Source: Candidatus Chromulinivoraceae bacterium (GTDB taxonomy: Bacteria > Patescibacteriota > Saccharimonadia > Saccharimonadales > Saccharimonadaceae). From it: a stretch of DNA of 64,000 nucleotides. Every line of letters begins with the position of its first letter. The first letter of the stretch is position 1. The DNA lies in contig DATIJL010000012.1 of the NCBI GenBank assembly GCA_035478595.1, positions 62,001-126,000 on the forward strand. The letters are read 5' to 3'. The notes under the pieces were generated by a model, which saw only the letters and a program-made list of their open reading frames with translations, was not told the DNA's origin and made no database searches. Shown in pieces: positions 54,881 to 63,426 of the stretch. Both the position numbers and the translations under genes were made by a program.

Positions 54881-55029
54881 AAGAATAACCGCCTCGCAGA
54901 GACGGCGATGCCAAAAGCGTGTGAGCGTGAGTGGTTTAATGTCTGCCCCCTATTTAGACAAATATGCTGCTTATGCCCTATTATGCCTAAACGGTCCCCA
55001 TTTCGCAAGGTATGCTATGCTTTTACGTG

Positions 55030-55776
55030 ATGAATATTAGCACGATTAAAACACCGGTCGTAAAAGCTGGGGCAATGCTTTTGACAGAACTGCTCGATGA
55101 CTCTTTGCATGGGTTTTGTGACAACTCTATTTTAGTCATCACCTCTAAAGTTGTGTCGCTCTGCGAGTCTCGTGTCGTAGATAAAGAAAAAGCGGCAAAA
55201 GATGAACTCATTAGGCATGAAGCAGACTTTTATCTAGATCCTTCCTACAGTTCTCATCGATACCATTTTAGTATCGTACAGGGCATGCTTACCTCTTCTG
55301 CGGGTATTGATGAGTCGAACGGTAACGGCGACTATGTACTATGGCCGCATGATGCCCAGTCAACGGCAAACCAAGTACGACAGTATCTGCAGCGCCGTTT
55401 TATGGTTAAAAATGTCGGTGTCATAATTGTTGATAGTACAAGCTATCCACTGCGGCGTGGCGCTATCGGTACGAGCCTCGCGCATAGCGGCTTCAAAGCT
55501 TTAAATGACTACAGGGGCAAGTCTGATCTCTTTGGCCGATCTATTAAGGTTGAGGTTGCAAATGTCTGCGAAGGTCTCGCTGCAGGGGCCGTTGCAACTA
55601 TGGGTGAGGGTGCCGAGAGTACTCCGATTGCCGTTATAACAGAGGCGAATTTCGTGACATTTCAGAGTACCGACCCGACACCCGAGGAACTTACCGAACT
55701 ACGGGTTGCACTTGACGATGATTATTACGCCTCATTTCTTACGTCGGCCCCCTGGCAACGCGGCGATCGATCGTAG
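55030..55776 (+). CDS. F420-0:gamma-glutamyl ligase-like protein (CofE family)
   Basis: A 248-residue CofE-like protein. Matching pieces: DNSILVITSKVVSLCESRVV, VGVIIVDSTSYPLRRGAIGTSLAHSGF, then DLFGRSIKVEVANVCEGLAAGAVATMGEG and PIAVITEANFVTF. CofE adds glutamate to coenzyme F420; that cofactor is not expected here, so the family member probably ligates an amino acid to another molecule. I choose ATG 55030 as the start: a TATGCT-like box is near, and the extra residues from 55012 are atypical. Confidence 0.85.
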   Translation: MNISTIKTPVVKAGAMLLTELLDDSLHGFCDNSILVITSKVVSLCESRVVDKEKAAKDELIRHEADFYLDPSYSSHRYHFSIVQGMLTSSAGIDESNGNGDYVLWPHDAQSTANQVRQYLQRRFMVKNVGVIIVDSTSYPLRRGAIGTSLAHSGFKALNDYRGKSDLFGRSIKVEVANVCEGLAAGAVATMGEGAESTPIAVITEANFVTFQSTDPTPEELTELRVALDDDYYASFLTSAPWQRGDRS

Positions 55777-56577
55777 TTACCTTCCCTGCATGAATGCACG
55801 GTCGCGTTCTATAACCTCGTTCCATGTCTCCACTGACCCTGTCTCCATTTGGTGTAGAAGGTCGGAACTGTAAGCTATGACTTCCGACTTGCGCTGGGTT
55901 AGAGTACGTTCGGCTTCTGGTAGCGGGTATTTGTAGGTTTCGAGTAGCGCAATCTGGTTGCGCTGAAAGGCAGTCAGTTTTTGCATATCTAACTGCTCTG
56001 GACGAGCCATGCCGTTAATTTCTCGGAATAACTGGTGTCCTAATAGCGGTCCTTGCGGTTGATACAGTTCACCAAGATCGGCCGAGGCAACACTTTTTGC
56101 CATATGTTCAGCCTCGCGTGAGGGGTAATGCAGCTGCATAGCCTTTTGGCCAACAAGCTTGCCATCTGCGAATAGCGGCTCGGTACCGAGAATGGCAAAT
56201 GAACCCATTGTGCGAAGTGCTGGATGAACGATATCGCTACGACTTAGCTCACGCTCTAGCCATTCGGCACTTTCTCTCTCGTCAGTCCCACGCCCCTTCA
56301 GTTGAACAAGGTCGTGCGCATACCCGGCGGTTTGTGCTGTTTCACGAACAAGCGGATCCATATCAAGTAGTGTGCACAATTTGAATGCCGTGCTGCCCAC
56401 TTCACGAGCATGATGACCATTGTGGTACGCCAGCTCATGACTACCATGTCGACGGTAATTTGGATGACCTTCACCGTACGTGCGATCGACGGTTTTGAGC
56501 GCATCCTCTCCTACTCGCTCTAGCTTTGCTGATTGTTCGCGTTCTGAAAAATGCCATGATGAAACAAACTCACTCAT
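55777..56577 (-). CDS. HD-domain phosphohydrolase
   Basis: A 266-residue protein. The HD metal motif is visible as LAYHNGHHAREVG and AQTAGYAHDLVQLKG, followed by ERESAEWLERELSRS. Such proteins hydrolyse phosphate esters, often nucleotides. A long helical C-terminal part has no known features. AAGAAGGAGC precedes the start. It is convergent with the CofE-like gene with no gap, and divergent from the TrmB-like regulator. Confidence 0.82.
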   Translation of the reverse strand: MSEFVSSWHFSEREQSAKLERVGEDALKTVDRTYGEGHPNYRRHGSHELAYHNGHHAREVGSTAFKLCTLLDMDPLVRETAQTAGYAHDLVQLKGRGTDERESAEWLERELSRSDIVHPALRTMGSFAILGTEPLFADGKLVGQKAMQLHYPSREAEHMAKSVASADLGELYQPQGPLLGHQLFREINGMARPEQLDMQKLTAFQRNQIALLETYKYPLPEAERTLTQRKSEVIAYSSDLLHQMETGSVETWNEVIERDRAFMQGR

Positions 56578-56664
56578 GTAAGCTCCTTCTTTTTATGAAT
56601 TGTTTTTTACTGGCAGCGCTAACCGTCTCGATAGTACGGGCTATTGCAATTCATTCATATTTGT

Positions 56665-56681
56665 TGTGCAAAAAGTGCACA
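56665..56681 (+). promoter_or_regulatory. Candidate operator upstream of the TrmB-like regulator
   Basis: TGTGCA (56665-56670) and TGCACA (56676-56681) form a perfect 6-bp inverted repeat with a 5-nt A-rich spacer, between the divergent HD and TrmB-like genes. Confidence 0.5.
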
Positions 56682-56699
56682 TATGGTAAAAAGGGAGGA

Positions 56700-57530
56700 G
56701 TGTTTACAGATACTCAAGTCATCCGGTCATACTTTTTCAAGCTCGGCCTATCCTCAGAGATTGCCGATATTTATCTGGCTCTTCTTGCCTATGGTCCACA
56801 AACTATCTCGGACGTATCGCGGCATTCAGGGGTGGAGCGAACTCGTGTCTATCGACTTATGGAAGAACTGACGGTGAGTAATCTTGTAGAGGTAGAGACT
56901 CGGTATAAGCGGACTATTCTTCATGCTGCTCCCATTACTAACCTGCAGATTTTGCTTACCAAAAAAGAGCAGGAGCTCGAGGAGCTTCGGCAAGGTTTGA
57001 CTGACCTGCATCAAAAGATCGATGCAGGTTCATTGGCATCACCGACCACTCGTGTTCAGGCGTACCAGGGGTCCGACGGTCTTAAGCAGATGTTTTGGAA
57101 TCAAACACGCTCAAAATCCGAAAGTCTCTCCATCTTGCATGAAAATATGCAGCGTTATACAAACGCGGTATTCTTTGATCGATGGGCGCGAGCCTGCAAT
57201 GATCGTGGCCTTGAGTTTCGGAGTATTATTGGCGATAGCTTCGTAGAGTCGCAAAAGACCTGGTATGAAGAGCATGCCAATGAGCGACTTCGTAAATGGA
57301 ATGGTCGCTATGTGCCTGAAGGTGTTTTTTCCGTTACTCACTCGACGGTAGTGTATGACGACGTGACGGCGTATTACAACTGGAAAGACGGCGAGGTTTT
57401 TGGAATAGAAATCCATAATGCACATATCACAGAGGCTCAGCGTCAGTTCTTTGAGATGCTCTGGACTTTAGGACAGGATTTTGATGATTCGCCCATCCAG
57501 GAACTTTGGAGCAAAAGTCGAAACGGCTAA
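56700..57530 (+). CDS. TrmB-family transcriptional regulator
   Basis: A 276-residue regulator with an N-terminal winged helix (YFFKLGLSSEIADIYLALLAYG, then TISDVSRHSGVERTRVYRLMEEL), a coiled linker (ILLTKKEQELEELRQGL) and a C-terminal sugar- or ligand-binding domain (RVQAYQGSDGLKQMFWN). TrmB proteins control sugar uptake and metabolism in archaea and some bacteria. The start is uncertain: GTG 56700 follows AGGGAGGA with no spacing; the open frame continues back to 56526, but that part overlaps the divergent gene and its control region. Confidence 0.8.
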   Translation: MFTDTQVIRSYFFKLGLSSEIADIYLALLAYGPQTISDVSRHSGVERTRVYRLMEELTVSNLVEVETRYKRTILHAAPITNLQILLTKKEQELEELRQGLTDLHQKIDAGSLASPTTRVQAYQGSDGLKQMFWNQTRSKSESLSILHENMQRYTNAVFFDRWARACNDRGLEFRSIIGDSFVESQKTWYEEHANERLRKWNGRYVPEGVFSVTHSTVVYDDVTAYYNWKDGEVFGIEIHNAHITEAQRQFFEMLWTLGQDFDDSPIQELWSKSRNG

Positions 57531-57548: not shown

Positions 57549-57556
57549 TAAAAATA
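57549..57556. repeat. Target site duplication, left
   Basis: TAAAAATA directly precedes the left transposon end and is repeated exactly at 62662-62669. Confidence 0.92.
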
Positions 57557-57583
57557 GGCAATTATATACTTGACGTTACCAAA
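57557..57583 (+). repeat. Left terminal inverted repeat of the IS1595-type transposon
   Basis: The 27 nt starting GGCAATTATATACTTGACG are the exact reverse complement of 62635-62661. Confidence 0.93.
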
Positions 57584-57595
57584 ACCAAAAAGAAG

Positions 57596-57769
57596 CTACT
57601 CAGCCTCTTTTTTAGGTGGCGGCGGTGTTTGCGCCATCTTCTTCACCGCAGACTCAAAACTTTCACTAACCTTAACCCGCTTTTCAGCAGGACTGGCCTT
57701 GGCTTGATCTTGGCCAATTTTTTCAGCTAAATCCTTGAGCTGTTCTTTGGAGGGCTTGTCGTCTGTCAT
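57596..57769 (-). CDS. Small charged cargo protein of the transposon
   Basis: A 57-residue soluble protein, rich in Lys, Glu, Ala and Pro (MTDDKPSKEQLKDLAEKIGQ..., ending PPPPKKEAE). The start at 57769 follows AGGA by 6 nt. It is the last gene of the cargo operon and ends 13 nt from the left repeat. Probably disordered or helical; function unknown. Confidence 0.6.
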   Translation of the reverse strand: MTDDKPSKEQLKDLAEKIGQDQAKASPAEKRVKVSESFESAVKKMAQTPPPPKKEAE

Positions 57770-57814
57770 AATTTTCCTCGCTAAATCCACTTTAAATATC
57801 ACCGTCGGGGCCAA

Positions 57815-58570
57815 TTATTTGAACACTTCCTTATCGTGCCATTCTTGATAGGCTGTTCTCTCGGATAGCAGTAGCTCATGCTTCTGCGATAATGCTGCCC
57901 GACTTTTCCTTGAATTACGGTAGCCCAAGAGCAGAAGAATGCAGACGAGGAGCGCGAAAGATAGGAGCACTTGCCAATACCAAATGCTCGCAAATGGCCA
58001 AATTGTTCGAGCGACAAAAAGCGTCGCGAGAACAAACCCATAAAGCGCCGTGTCCGCCCAGAAATCTAATGTCACTTTCTGTTTTTGGGCTTGGATCTCC
58101 TTGCTCTTATCCAATAACCCCTTGCTCGCCGTCTTATATTCATCTTGATAGGTGCTAGATGATGGGTCGAGCAATATCTTGTTGTATGCGTGGATAATTG
58201 GCTCAAGCATTATCTCCTGATCGAGTCCTACCTGGGGTGCATCTTCAGCGTCCTGGTATAAAAGTGTTTTGCATCGCCATAGAGCGAGCACACCGTTGAG
58301 TAGATATAGGCCGACTCCGATGATAGCAAATGACTGGAATTGAACGTCACTATCGGCAACGATTATAACCGGCGTGATCGCAGCCCCTACGATGAGAGAG
58401 AGCTCGCCAACCTTCATGAGGTATTCTCGTCGCTTATCACGACTTGCCAGGCTTATATTCATTCGTAGGTCACGAATCTCATTGAGCTGATCCTGAAGTT
58501 TATCTCGCTCTGGGGCAAGCTTCTCGATTACCTCGTCTTCCCATTTTCGTTTTTCTTCTTGGCCGCTCAT
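57815..58570 (-). CDS. Cargo membrane protein, unknown function
   Basis: A 251-residue protein with a helical, charged N terminus (WEDEVIEKLAPERDKLQDQL, coiled-coil-like), a pair of hydrophobic segments (about 52-92), a soluble helical middle, and a second pair near the C terminus (about 172-218). The layout resembles SLATT-type membrane pore proteins found in nucleotide-signalling defence systems, but I am not certain. It lies 4 nt after the NTF2-like gene in the same operon. Confidence 0.6.
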   Translation of the reverse strand: MSGQEEKRKWEDEVIEKLAPERDKLQDQLNEIRDLRMNISLASRDKRREYLMKVGELSLIVGAAITPVIIVADSDVQFQSFAIIGVGLYLLNGVLALWRCKTLLYQDAEDAPQVGLDQEIMLEPIIHAYNKILLDPSSSTYQDEYKTASKGLLDKSKEIQAQKQKVTLDFWADTALYGFVLATLFVARTIWPFASIWYWQVLLSFALLVCILLLLGYRNSRKSRAALSQKHELLLSERTAYQEWHDKEVFK

Positions 58571-58574
58571 TTAT

Positions 58575-58925
58575 CTATGCCTTACTCCGCACCTCTATAT
58601 GCTGAATCTTGCCCATGTAAATAATCACGTATTCAAAGCCTGATGCCTCGACTTTTTCACCATCCGGCTGCTCGCCTACAAAATCGTAGTCAAAAAGAAC
58701 GACGCCAGGTTTCACTTCCTCAACTGAATTTACATGCCATTTCAGGGATGTAAACTTGGCGTGGAATATTCTTTGCATCGCCAAAATATCGCTCACCCCG
58801 AGGTAGACTCCAGTGGCTTGGGAGCTATAGGTCGTAGCCTCGGTCATGAGCTTTTCGATGCCATCAAAATCACTCTTGTTGGAGAGATCAAAATACAACT
58901 TAGATACTTTAAGCGCTTTAGTCAT
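58575..58925 (-). CDS. NTF2-like (SnoaL-type) cargo protein
   Basis: A 116-residue protein with the alpha/beta cone pattern of the NTF2-like superfamily: an N-terminal helix (KALKVSKLYFDLSNKSDFDG), TYSSQATGVYLGVSDILAM, then strands WHVNSVEEVKPGVVLFDYDFV and SGFEYVIIYMGKIQHIEVRS. Members range from isomerases to scaffolds; no active site can be assigned. It overlaps the nucleotidyltransferase gene by 4 nt (ATGA). Confidence 0.72.
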   Translation of the reverse strand: MTKALKVSKLYFDLSNKSDFDGIEKLMTEATTYSSQATGVYLGVSDILAMQRIFHAKFTSLKWHVNSVEEVKPGVVLFDYDFVGEQPDGEKVEASGFEYVIIYMGKIQHIEVRSKA

Positions 58926-59689
58926 ACTCGCTCCGCCACAAACCGAATAAGATCATACGTCTCGCCCTGCTTGTTGAGTGGGTCGCCCATTTCCCAAGCC
59001 AAAGCTTCACGTAGCAACTCGGTGTACTGCGGATAACGTTCTGCACACCACACAGCAGCCCTTTTCTTAGAAACTTCATCGCGATTTTCAATGCCGTATA
59101 GGATGCGCGCCATAGTCAGGATGGCATAGGCCTGGTACTCATTATCCATCGGTTCTTTCGCTTGGAGTTTTGGCAGCCACCAACCTTTGAATAGTTGGAT
59201 TTTAGCCTGGAGCATATCGTCTGTAGTAATCTCGCCAATAACATCTCTAGGCGATGGCCCATAGACTACGAAGCCTGATTTTCTAATCTTCCAGAGGTCA
59301 ATGATGATATCCGCGCCGTGGTCTTCTATCTGAAAATGTCCGTCGCTACCAAGATGCGGTGCGTGCATGTCGGCGGTCTTAGGATGGGTTGATTGGTCGG
59401 AGGTTAGATATATGCCCTCGTAATTTGTGTATAGGCGGTTTTTGTTACTGGCATACACACTATCGTGCAGCTCGTGAAGTCTTCGTATTGAGCCATCGGT
59501 AAACTCACCCTTGGCGACCACCAGAAAGTCCAAATCACTTCTGTCTTCGTCAAAGTCGCCGATAGCCAGACTACCGCCGAGGTAGAAACCTAGCAAATTA
59601 TCGCCTAAGATTTGTTGCACGCCATCGAAAAGATCATTGACAAGGGGGTGGGTTACTTCGGGTTGGGGCAAGTTAGGCATCTTAGTCAT
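58922..59689 (-). CDS. Aminoglycoside nucleotidyltransferase-like protein (cargo)
   Basis: A 255-residue protein with the nucleotidyltransferase signature GFYLGGSLAIGDFDEDRSDLDFLVV (GS...D.D) and a C-terminal helical domain with NEYQAYAILTMARILYGI and VSKKRAAVWCAERYP, as in AadA/DUF4111 proteins that adenylate streptomycin or spectinomycin. Whether it gives resistance cannot be read from sequence. The start at 59689 lies 1 nt after the aroE stop; the frame upstream overlaps aroE. Confidence 0.82.
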   Translation of the reverse strand: MTKMPNLPQPEVTHPLVNDLFDGVQQILGDNLLGFYLGGSLAIGDFDEDRSDLDFLVVAKGEFTDGSIRRLHELHDSVYASNKNRLYTNYEGIYLTSDQSTHPKTADMHAPHLGSDGHFQIEDHGADIIIDLWKIRKSGFVVYGPSPRDVIGEITTDDMLQAKIQLFKGWWLPKLQAKEPMDNEYQAYAILTMARILYGIENRDEVSKKRAAVWCAERYPQYTELLREALAWEMGDPLNKQGETYDLIRFVAERV

Positions 59690-59690
59690 T

Positions 59691-60512
59691 CTAATTTCCC
59701 AAGGCCTCAAGCAACGCTTTTTCCATAACCTCAAATGGCGCTTTCTTACCAGTAAATAACTCTAGCTGGAATAAGGCTTGATGTATGAGCATTCGGTAGC
59801 CAGGCACCGTCATTGCGCCCTTAGCCTTGGCATATTGAAGGAACTTGGTATCAGCCGGAACCGTAATAACATCCATAGCCACGACGCTAGGCTTGAAAAA
59901 GTCCTCAGTCACGATACACTCATCAACACCACTTACAAGTGAGCCTACTGGCGTAGCGTTAATGACAATGTCATAGTCATCTACTGTTTTTAGGCGTGCA
60001 AGATCCCCACCAAACTCAGCGCCCAAGTCATTGGCCAAGCTCTCAGCTTTGGCTGTATCACGGTTGAACACTACCGGCTTTGCTTTGTTTTGAAGCAGCC
60101 CGTAAATGATTGCCCTGGCCGCGCCACCCGCACCAATTACGGCAACTCTCTTACCCTCTAGTTTTGTTACTTCCTTGAGTGCGTTCATAGCGCCAACCCA
60201 ATCTGAGTTATAGCCAGTGAGCACACCGCCATCGTTTGAGACCGTATTAACTGCGCCAATCGCTTCAGCAATCGGGTCAATCTTGTCGAGATATTGCATG
60301 ACGGCCTGCTTGTGGGGCATAGAGACGGTGTTACCTCGGAGATTGAAACCGCGCACTCCCGCAATTGCATTTTGAATGTCGTTGGTCGTGATGGGGACAT
60401 ACAAGGCGTTTTCACCGATGGCGACGTATGCGGCATTGTGCATAGCAGCACCAAGGCTGTTTTGCTTCGCGGAGAAAGAAACTATGAGTTTGGTGTCTTT
60501 GGTGATTGTCAT
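59691..60512 (-). CDS. aroE: Shikimate dehydrogenase (cargo)
   Basis: A 273-residue AroE-family enzyme (3-dehydroshikimate to shikimate, NADPH). Substrate site: IVSFSAKQNSLGAAMHNAAY and GNTVSMPHKQAVMQYLD; NADP loop: VAVIGAGGAARAIIYGL; then FNRDTAKAESLA and INATPVGS. The first catalytic stretch reads FSAKQNS where SxS is usual (Ser retained). A TATTAT box ends 6 nt before the ATG. No other shikimate-pathway gene lies in the window, so its value as cargo is unclear. Confidence 0.9.
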   Translation of the reverse strand: MTITKDTKLIVSFSAKQNSLGAAMHNAAYVAIGENALYVPITTNDIQNAIAGVRGFNLRGNTVSMPHKQAVMQYLDKIDPIAEAIGAVNTVSNDGGVLTGYNSDWVGAMNALKEVTKLEGKRVAVIGAGGAARAIIYGLLQNKAKPVVFNRDTAKAESLANDLGAEFGGDLARLKTVDDYDIVINATPVGSLVSGVDECIVTEDFFKPSVVAMDVITVPADTKFLQYAKAKGAMTVPGYRMLIHQALFQLELFTGKKAPFEVMEKALLEALGN

Positions 60513-60540
60513 GCTCTAATAATACCTTATGGGGGCTCAA

Positions 60541-60596
60541 AACTTATTTCCCTTTGGCAAATAAGTTCAACTTTCATTTGAGTACAAATGAAAGTT
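60541..60596. repeat. Two tandem perfect hairpins in the transposon
   Basis: AACTTATTT/AAATAAGTT (60541-60549 and 60559-60567) and AACTTTCATTT/AAATGAAAGTT (60569-60579 and 60586-60596) lie back to back between the replication-relaxation and aroE genes. Both begin with AACTT. They could terminate transcription or be protein-binding sites. Confidence 0.65.
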
Positions 60597-60611
60597 CGTA
60601 TTTGGGCTACA

Positions 60612-61481
60612 TCAGTCCTCATCGTCGTCTTCCTCGTCTTCATCATCATCTTCGGGCGCGCTGACCTCCTCCCAAATCTTCCCCGTCATCCCCTGCGCCT
60701 TGAGCTTCTCCGCTGTCGCAAACCACATGGTGATATCTTCACCCCATTTTTCTTCAAGCAATCGTTTGGTAGCTCGTTTGCAGTAAATCAAATCGGCTAG
60801 CGTTGGGCATACAAACATGATGATCGGGTTTGGCTCGTCCTCATTCGTTTCATCCTGCCAATACCCATCTTCCAGATATTCAATGTAGTTCTTGAGCCGC
60901 TTTCGCACTCGGTGACGAGGCATGGTGGCTTCGATGATTTCAATGAAACGAGTGTTACTCGTGACTTCATTCTTGGTCTCGACCGTCTTTTCGAGCACTA
61001 ACTGGGGTTGGATGAGATCGGACTCGCTCAGGAAATGATAATCGCTTTCTGGGTCGAGGTAGTCGGCCTGAGTGGCGTATAAGTAGTGAACGCGGCTGGT
61101 AGCAGCATCATCTTCATTCTTGCGATTCATGGCGATGCAGCAGTCGGCAGTAATCATACATTGGTCGGCGAACCCTCGGCTGCGCGACGACTCACGGTAG
61201 CGCTTGCGAAACTCCTCTATCGGGTGATCTTGGTTTTCCTTAAGCCAGCGGATACCATTTAGGCCGAGATAGTAAATGCCGGGCTTGGATTTTTCTAGAA
61301 AGTCAGTCGAGTATATCCATTCGACGTAGTGGTTATCTCGGAGGTCTGAGAGCCACGCATTGATCCGCCTGTAATCTTTATGACCCATCAGTGTTTGTAT
61401 TTGGATACGATTTAAGAATCTGTATCTATATAGCAGTATGAGTATGGTTTGTTGTCTGGGAGTTAGTTTAGGTAGTTTCAT
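60612..61481 (-). CDS. Replication-relaxation family protein (cargo)
   Basis: A 289-residue protein with an N-terminal winged helix (LTPRQQTILILLYRYRFLNRIQIQTLMG) typical of the replication-relaxation family, found on plasmids and conjugative elements. The middle has FLSESDLIQPQLVLEKTVE, and the C terminus ends in a strongly acidic tail (about 20 Asp/Glu). It is the first cargo gene after the transposase; its family link to plasmids suggests that the cargo came from one. Confidence 0.78.
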   Translation of the reverse strand: MKLPKLTPRQQTILILLYRYRFLNRIQIQTLMGHKDYRRINAWLSDLRDNHYVEWIYSTDFLEKSKPGIYYLGLNGIRWLKENQDHPIEEFRKRYRESSRSRGFADQCMITADCCIAMNRKNEDDAATSRVHYLYATQADYLDPESDYHFLSESDLIQPQLVLEKTVETKNEVTSNTRFIEIIEATMPRHRVRKRLKNYIEYLEDGYWQDETNEDEPNPIIMFVCPTLADLIYCKRATKRLLEEKWGEDITMWFATAEKLKAQGMTGKIWEEVSAPEDDDEDEEDDDED

Positions 61482-61686
61482 TTAATGCAGTAGTTAGTGA
61501 GTAGTAGTGGTAGTAGTTTGTTCTGTTTTTTTGTTTGTCTTGTTTTGAGCGATAGTATTTTGCCAACCCCACCTACACCGTATATTTATAAGGTAAGTGA
61601 CACGATTATTCAAATTTTACTGTTTACGAAATGGGTTTTATTGTCCTAATCCGCTAGGACAAAGAATAACAGTCGTTTTGCTGGCC

Positions 61687-62613
61687 TTACGCCTTCTTAA
61701 TGAGCGACTTATACATGAGCCGCTTGCCGTTGATATTGCTAAACCAATCCTCGAATCGTTCGCCGTCCGTCATATCCTTAGTGTTCCAACGGTAGCTATA
61801 TTCGTCACAGTATTTTTGCAAATGCTTGGCGCTGACATTGTGATAGATGCCATCAATACCACGCTTGAGGTGCGACCAGAACGACTCGGCAGTATTTGTG
61901 CTGGCCATGCCATTTACGAATTCTTTGCTGCCATGGTTAACGCTTTCGTGCTTGTAGCCAAGCTTTGGCAGGGTGCGATATGGCATGTGCTCATCGGTGT
62001 AAACAGTGGCATTCAAATCGACATGCTTGCTGATCAAGCCCATAAGCGTAGCACTGCCTGTGTCGCCCGTAACGACAGCGTGGAGTTTGCCGCCGCGTTG
62101 TACCATGCCAACTACTGGGGTTTTGACTTTCTTGCTACCAAAGCCTTGGGTGCCTTTGGTTTTTTTGTTGGCATGTTTGTTCTTCTCATTGCCGCCAATG
62201 TAGGCTTCGTCTACCTCCACGGCGTCTTTGAGCTTTTCAAAGGTGCCGTTCTCGAAAACGTAACGGATGCGCTGCAACATGAACCAGGCTGTCTTTTGAG
62301 TGACGCCGAGGTATTTGCTAAGCTGGATTGACGATACGCCTTTCTTGAGGCTCGTGCATAGGTAGATGGCGAAGAACCACTTTTGGAGGGGAAGTTTGCT
62401 ATCTTCAAAGACGCTACCCATGCGGACGGTGAATGGGCTGCGACATTCGGCACATTTGAGGCGGCCACTGGCTAGCTTGTAAGCTTTGACGCCAATGGTG
62501 CCGCACTTCGGGCAGACAATCTCATCGCCCCAACGCTGCTTAGCCAAGAAGTCTTGGCACTTTTCTTCGGTGGCAAACTCGTTGTAGAACTCGATGAGAT
62601 TTGTTGCATTCAT
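61687..62613 (-). CDS. IS1595-family transposase
   Basis: A 308-residue DDE-type transposase. A zinc-ribbon at the N terminus (VCPKCGTIGVKAY and LKCAECRSPFTV) is followed by a helix-turn-helix (SSIQLSKYLGVTQKTAWFML) and the catalytic domain: VEVDEAYIGGNEKNK (first Asp), ATVYTDEHMPY (second Asp) and NTAESFWSHLKRGI (Glu). This is the ISXO2/IS1595 signature. The gene is intact and its start lies 22 nt from the inner edge of the right repeat. Confidence 0.95.
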   Translation of the reverse strand: MNATNLIEFYNEFATEEKCQDFLAKQRWGDEIVCPKCGTIGVKAYKLASGRLKCAECRSPFTVRMGSVFEDSKLPLQKWFFAIYLCTSLKKGVSSIQLSKYLGVTQKTAWFMLQRIRYVFENGTFEKLKDAVEVDEAYIGGNEKNKHANKKTKGTQGFGSKKVKTPVVGMVQRGGKLHAVVTGDTGSATLMGLISKHVDLNATVYTDEHMPYRTLPKLGYKHESVNHGSKEFVNGMASTNTAESFWSHLKRGIDGIYHNVSAKHLQKYCDEYSYRWNTKDMTDGERFEDWFSNINGKRLMYKSLIKKA

Positions 62614-62634
62614 ACCTTAATATTACTAAATTGC

Positions 62635-62661
62635 TTTGGTAACGTCAAGTATATAATTGCC
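62635..62661 (-). repeat. Right terminal inverted repeat of the transposon
   Basis: Exact 27-nt reverse complement of the left end. It contains TATATAAT, which could act as an outward -10 box into the flanking DNA. Confidence 0.93.
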
Positions 62662-62669
62662 TAAAAATA
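62662..62669. repeat. Target site duplication, right
   Basis: TAAAAATA, identical to 57549-57556. Confidence 0.92.
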
Positions 62670-63351: not shown

Positions 63352-63426
63352 GGCCTCATCGTCTAACGGTTAGGACACAAGGTTCTCATCCTTGCAATCC
63401 GGGTTCGATTCCCGGTGAGGTCACCA
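63352..63426 (+). tRNA. tRNA-Glu (anticodon CTC), CCA encoded
   Basis: A full cloverleaf: acceptor GGCCTCA pairs with TGAGGTC (one G-U), D-arm GTCTAACGGTTAGGAC, anticodon stem CAAGG/CCTTG around the loop TTCTCAT (anticodon CTC, Glu), and T-arm CCGGG-TTCGATT-CCCGG. The 3' CCA is encoded. Confidence 0.95.

Follow-up and report, generated by a model that had tools for sequence, protein, structure and literature searches.

A block of 5105 bp at positions 57557-62661 of the 64,000-nucleotide stretch that we analyzed (the window; contig DATIJL010000012.1 of the Candidatus Chromulinivoraceae assembly GCA_035478595.1) is probably an autonomous, cargo-carrying transposon of the IS1595 family and one of at least 12 complete, related elements in Saccharibacteria, which have a constant core and an exchangeable middle. 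The block has GGCAATTATATACTTGACGTTACCAAA at one end, the exact reverse complement of that sequence at the other (27/27 positions), and a perfect 8-bp duplication around it, the junctions reading TAAAAATA / GGCAATTATATACTTGACGTTACCAAA ... TTTGGTAACGTCAAGTATATAATTGCC / TAAAAATA (57549-57583 and 62635-62669). It is the sole exact 27-nt inverted-repeat pair with an identical flanking 8-mer in the window and is single-copy in the host genome (a 19-contig draft of 1.14 Mb, 99.5% complete). The original prediction, made from the nucleotide letters only, had placed inverted ends, duplication and an intact transposase here, and all were confirmed by reading the sequence and by family models. The 7/7 genes of the element lie on the minus strand, and its features are as follows.

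57549-57556, no strand: left copy of the 8-bp target duplication TAAAAATA (sequence)
57557-57583, plus: left (far-end) 27-bp terminal inverted repeat, matching the right end 27/27 and found in other genomes
57596-57769, minus: core gene, small far-end protein, 57 amino acids from ATG; homologues similarly placed in every other complete element
57617-57661, minus: motif region SFESAVKKMAQTPPPP within the small protein (motif model, 13.5 bits)
57815-58570, minus: cargo, membrane protein with weak SLATT/DUF4231 resemblance, below cut-offs
58575-58925, minus: cargo, NTF2/SnoaL-like protein (Pfam SnoaL)
58922-59689, minus: cargo, nucleotidyltransferase with AadA_C domain (NTP_transf_2 and AadA_C above Pfam cut-offs)
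59691-60512, minus: cargo, shikimate dehydrogenase AroE (TIGR00507)
60612-61481, minus: core gene, Replic_Relax protein, MarR-like winged helix and alpha/beta C-terminal domain (PF13814; AlphaFold)
61687-62613, minus: core gene, IS1595-family DDE transposase with zinc ribbon (Pfam, NCBIfam)
62635-62661, minus: right (transposase-end) 27-bp terminal inverted repeat (sequence)
62662-62669, no strand: right copy of the target duplication TAAAAATA (sequence)

Transposase, core genes and relatives in Saccharibacteria

The transposase is intact and matches DDE_Tnp_IS1595 (PF12762) with 149 bits, above the cut-off, the N-terminal Zn_ribbon_IS1595 (PF12760) with 43.3 bits (cut-off 25.4) and the NCBIfam IS1595 model (NF033547) with 203 bits. 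Its catalytic residues Asp-135, Asp-207 and Glu-243 are invariant. As expected for the family, TAAAAATA is duplicated at both ends, related elements likewise have 8-bp duplications, and the terminal inverted repeats start with GG (GGCAATTATATAC..., 27/27). Transposase models, zinc ribbon, duplication and GG ends thus uphold the predicted IS1595-family transposon with passengers; passenger carriage by itself is insufficient to define the ISNha5 subgroup. In the viral collection, the transposase has distant relatives only (26-46% identity).

Relatives were sought by a DNA search of 61 genomes and with a 24-nt end pattern in 394 genomes. The pattern was found in 8/394 genomes and its reversed control in 0/394. 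The 27-bp end and the transposase, which the original prediction had proposed to look for elsewhere, both recur in other Saccharibacteria genera, the ends being shared by further genera within the host's bacterial family. The first end type bounds 12 complete elements, the window element and 11 others of 4.7-16.9 kb, with exact, AT-rich 8-bp duplications:

L015: 14418 bp, TAAGATTA
L024: 14420 bp, ATTTATAA
L016: 11795 bp, TAATAAAT
L017 (genome G015, L017:1770-9934): 8165 bp, ATTACTTA
L018: 5771 bp, AATTAATA, transposase broken
L025: 7589 bp, TATTATTA
L126 (genome G512): 9176 bp, TTAAAGAT
L127: 4678 bp, TAAAATAA
L131: 11437 bp, TAAATAAT
L136: 16896 bp, TAATTATT
L125 (genome G094, L125:764-14721): 13958 bp, TAAAATTA

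A second end type, GGCAATTATCCCTTGACGCC and the like, bounds four further elements:

L119 (genome G026, L119:729-4379): 3651 bp
L122 (window genome, contig C8, L122:1174-5610): 4437 bp, duplication TTTCGTTT
L130: 2880 bp
L132: 5638 bp

All 12 elements of the first end type carry a Replic_Relax gene directly behind the transposase (as fragments in L018 and L126) and, at the opposite end, a gene of 56-98 amino acids co-oriented with the transposase; the middle region between the core genes is the sole variable part. Because the Replic_Relax and small far-end genes recur in every complete family element, we assign them to the core. Six co-oriented open reading frames (ORFs) do accompany the transposase, as predicted, but they are not six equal passengers: the variable cargo of the window element is four genes, encoding AroE, the nucleotidyltransferase, the NTF2-like protein and the membrane protein. 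The small protein of the window has no Pfam or NCBIfam family match, and its reading frame is open to 57814 from a TTG.

The unit as a whole appears to be mobile. L015 and L024, from two congeneric species, have 99.4% identity across 14.42 kb, their duplications differ, and there is no similarity beyond the element. The same copy therefore lies at different sites in two species, and the whole unit moves. The L015 site is empty in two congeners (G123 and G136), in which both flanks adjoin without the element. An empty counterpart of the window site, which the original prediction had proposed to find, was located at the level of synteny in G013, where a TrmB-like gene (65% identical) is followed after ∼0.7 kb by the same tRNA (97% over 76 nt) and the element is absent; the exact target bases are not alignable between genera. 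To the left of the element in the window (55012-57530), a gene read by eye as F420-0 gamma-glutamyl ligase-like is accompanied by one for an HD-domain-like protein and by a TrmB-family regulator gene with its 3' end 26 bp from the element; a tRNA gene (63352-63423) lies 0.7 kb to the right.

The window Replic_Relax protein matches PF13814 with 39.4 bits (cut-off 25.3). Any match to this family is found in just 55/345 genomes of the order, and across these genomes and an additional genome set there are 21 cases, in several bacterial families, in which Replic_Relax immediately follows the 3' end of a co-oriented IS1595 transposase gene. We estimate that chance adjacency would be expected well under once, with a handful of each gene per ∼1-Mb genome. 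Replic_Relax comes as two deep types that have been exchanged between transposase lineages: L015 and L136 share transposases of 90% identity and Replic_Relax proteins of 22%, and over all pairs the two identities are uncorrelated (Spearman 0.07), which rules out co-inheritance of the two genes as one unit. A fixed slot filled with exchanged versions suggests that Replic_Relax has a job in the element.

The AlphaFold model of Replic_Relax (predicted local distance difference test 75; 66 for the second subtype) contains a clear MarR-like winged helix (VIA Z 11.9) and an alpha/beta domain, and a PDB sequence search returned winged-helix regulators only, with weak E-values. For the C-terminal domain, searched within the whole protein only, no convincing PDB structure match was obtained. 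The order of its alpha/beta elements fits PD-(D/E)XK enzymes loosely, with one weak Shedu match, and PD/DxK-like residues are not retained in the window protein. With a clear winged helix and no convincing C-terminal match, we do not claim a TnsA-like nuclease. The predicted structure closely resembles uncharacterized Bacillus phage proteins along its whole length; no Replic_Relax relatives were found in the viral collection. In L126 (L126:12400-13425, G512), IS3-like transposase ORFs, recognized by eye, are inserted in the IS1595 element and split the Replic_Relax gene.

A short motif on first passengers of IS1595 elements

Reading the passengers of 80 diverse IS1595 loci, we noticed a recurrent short segment (∼xF[DEN]x[AK]LxxAxxxxP) at the start or end of the first passenger, and built a profile hidden Markov model (HMM) from 13 such segments. 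Run on 5401 ORFs, it placed its top 34 matches all 3' of a co-oriented transposase, which nearly all of them overlap or abut. Since 11 of the loci concerned had supplied seeds, the fair test is the held-out set of 60 loci, in which 18/18 ORFs scoring at least 8 bits are co-oriented with the transposase and no more than 1 kb 3' of it (P ∼2e-27).

The carriers of this tag are KilA-N, RhuM, P63C and D12-methylase (Dam-type) proteins, in which the segment lies outside the Pfam domain (at the N terminus in the methylases), as well as stand-alone proteins of 50-60 amino acids with 0 family matches. RhuM proteins in IS1595 elements have the tag in 5/5 cases (three were seeds), as against 0/11 RhuM proteins on plasmids away from IS1595. 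Alignments of the sampled phage relatives to the tagged methylase start at residue 28 or later, the tag being residues 12-28, and 1/17 phage KilA-N relatives reaches the first residues of the tag. These controls from outside IS1595 rule out the tag as a general trait of the RhuM, KilA-N or Dam families. Full-HMM scores of the Saccharibacteria far-end proteins, whose version of the motif reads xF[DEN]xALxxA...xP, are 4-16 bits, and most other Replic_Relax elements contain small ORFs with similar motifs. The window region SFESAVKKMAQTPPPP retains 6.5 bits with an HMM lacking any Saccharibacteria seed.

A tentative proposal follows, which we regard as possible: passenger-bearing IS1595 transposons across bacterial phyla may engage their transposase through a common motif, present as a small protein or as an N- or C-terminal graft on an otherwise unrelated DNA-binding passenger, so that cargo joins the transposition machine, which would explain why passengers are kept. 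In Saccharibacteria the motif protein and Replic_Relax would then be the minimal core, with the middle free for cargo of up to ∼14 kb. In the main reading, which is probable, the transposase recognizes the near-identical 27-bp ends and inserts the whole block into AT-rich 8-bp targets; the ends, the duplications and one 14.4-kb unit at two sites are observed, and cut-and-paste chemistry is presumed from the DDE family. Replic_Relax may bind element DNA as a regulator or assembly factor, and the small far-end protein may partner the transposase via a short helical motif. Where other IS1595 elements have the motif on their first passenger, retention of cargo would be coupled to transposition. 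Exchangeable modules occupy the space between the core genes.

Cargo of the window element and of its relatives

The window AroE scores 209.3 bits against the TIGR00507 equivalog-domain model (cut-off 200.2). Chorismate synthase is absent from the 99.5%-complete host genome, so aroE stands outside a complete aromatic pathway, and a part in complete de novo synthesis is ruled out. We corrected the start of the nucleotidyltransferase to an ATG at 59689. Its label as AadA-like did not hold: the best ANT model score is 40.6 bits against a cut-off of 340, so that the protein falls short of ANT(3'')/ANT(9) and far beneath every ANT model. The NTF2-like label is borderline, SnoaL scoring just under its Pfam cut-off (27.2 versus 28.4 bits), and the membrane protein resembles SLATT weakly (SLATT_1 21.5 bits, cut-off 41) and does not qualify as a SLATT membrane effector. 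A defence role of this cargo was considered and rejected, PADLOC giving just a weak candidate-family match, to the nucleotidyltransferase. Among the ORFs and domain matches of the window element there is no conjugation-module gene, and it does not classify as an integrative conjugative element. We read its cargo, on slender support, as probably a small-molecule modification or protection module.

Other family members carry very different middles. L017 contains a sortase, a reverse transcriptase, an Avd-like protein, a CdiA_C protein and a 667-amino acid target; between its variable repeat and the template there are 24 differences, 23/24 of them at template A. By its sequence, L017 thus carries a complete diversity-generating retroelement inside transposon ends with an exact duplication; the diversified protein is of surface type and varied at its C terminus. 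L125 carries VirB4/TraG, PrgI, pilin and VirB6, CHAP and VirD4-like genes inside matching ends. No relaxase was recognized in L125, and it is a possible candidate for an IS1595-driven conjugative element. L016 carries an RloC/PrrC-like ATPase and a VirD4-like ATPase; VirD4/TrwB-like ATPases occur in L016 and L131, and by sequence resemblance in L136. The cargo of L119 is a divergent second tyrosyl-tRNA synthetase with 28% identity to the other one of the host, and that of L015 comprises ABC export, two-component and flavin/ApbE-like genes (read from ORFs, without a Pfam search).

Several further observations concern cargo. In G026, L119 and the 11.8-kb L016 are separated by less than 1 kb. In L122, Replic_Relax is broken and the cargo is kinase-like and endonuclease/phosphatase-like. 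In G136, an IS1595 transposase and Replic_Relax (L121:8049-10972) stand beside a histidyl-tRNA-synthetase-like ORF near a contig end, possibly a second synthetase as cargo. L016, L018 and L136 share a repeated sub-module near the small core gene, made up of a RadC-like JAB gene, a partner of 146-162 amino acids and a small helix-turn-helix gene.

Alternative explanations and known systems

The window element could be an ordinary passenger-carrying IS1595 element of the ISNha5 kind, in which Replic_Relax and the small protein are just common passengers and transposition does not involve them. Such elements, among them ones with transcription regulators such as ISNha5, are already described (PMC11891212), and many of the IS1595 loci that we examined are 2-5.5 kb elements with one to several passengers. 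Yet both core genes hold fixed positions in 12/12 complete elements while everything between them is replaced, Replic_Relax is swapped for divergent versions in the same slot, and the motif is repeated in unrelated proteins just behind the transposase; we therefore judge this explanation somewhat unlikely. That the motif has nothing to do with the transposase and is a degradation signal or antitoxin-like peptide, retained since the passengers are toxic, would agree with its short, terminal nature and with the RhuM, KilA-N and Bro-N passengers, families linked to phages, addiction or defence. It is doubtful given the tag on methylases (at the N terminus) and alone in small proteins, and its lack in homologues outside IS1595. 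Distinctly improbable is a form of integrative conjugative or mobilizable element, with Replic_Relax related to conjugation and the transposase acting as integrase: conjugative elements with DDE transposases are known (PMC3942029), and L125 (exact duplication, secretion genes) and the VirD4/TrwB-like ATPases of L016, L131 and L136 would fit, but secretion and relaxase genes are absent from the window element and from most others, nor was any L125 gene recognized as a relaxase. An island with inverted ends and a duplication produced by chance or by assembly is next to inconceivable, even in a 19-contig draft: ends, duplications and gene order are shared by unrelated assemblies, some of them single-contig, the reversed end pattern has no match in 394 genomes, and the recurring elements contradict it.

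Against the cargo transposon with a motif-based core stand a number of points. The evidence for transposition is wholly comparative, with no observed event, from genomes that are mostly draft assemblies, several elements lying in single-contig genomes. What Replic_Relax and the cargo do is guesswork. Of the 18 held-out tag matches, six are related Streptococcus proteins. With the HMM built without Saccharibacteria seeds, the far-end proteins score mostly 3-8 bits and are among the top of 3882 ORFs with a few spurious ones interspersed; the putative link between small proteins and passenger tags depends on a motif of 12-17 residues and is the weaker half of the argument. The tag reaches 6 bits in just 37/80 IS1595 loci, and about half of 10 viral-contig loci have it, mostly weakly, with none convincing in the rest. 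It is not universal among IS1595 elements.

Saccharibacteria are tiny and host-dependent, and little is known of how they gain genes. One concrete route is a transposon family, present in many of their genera, that moves blocks of 5-17 kb; the contents include secretion machinery, defence-like genes, a diversity-generating retroelement and, in the sister end type, a second tyrosyl-tRNA synthetase. If true, a transposon-specific tag shared by unrelated passengers would offer a testable reason for the retention of passengers by some insertion sequences, as well as a sequence feature by which to locate cargo transposons.

We found no published description of the Replic_Relax/small-protein core, the tag or Saccharibacteria IS1595 transposons in the literature within reach, which excludes key subscription papers such as the IS1595-defining one of 2009. 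IS1595 subgroups have been described (PMC8101967), and passenger-bearing members, including those with regulators, are known as ‘transporter IS’ (PMC11891212, which cites Siguier 2009). The elements share 8-bp duplications, GG ends, a zinc-ribbon and DDE transposase and passengers with ISNha5, as far as these two sources describe it. Compared by description, they differ from the ISNha5 kind in the constant Replic_Relax and far-end genes, cargo of up to ∼14 kb, and type IV secretion and diversity-generating modules. Tn7-like transposons work similarly in having a DDE transposase, separate accessory genes and large exchangeable cargo; our elements have a single transposase, no TnsC/TnsD/TniQ-like gene was seen in them, and no nuclease or target-selector role is established for Replic_Relax. 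TnGBS/Mutator-type integrative conjugative elements (PMC3942029) combine a DDE transposase with conjugation genes, as does L125, but the transposase family differs and most members here carry no conjugation genes. L017 resembles diversity-generating retroelements in its reverse transcriptase, Avd-like protein, template and variable repeats and A-specific changes, and unlike the usual ones its unit lies inside a transposon with an exact target duplication.

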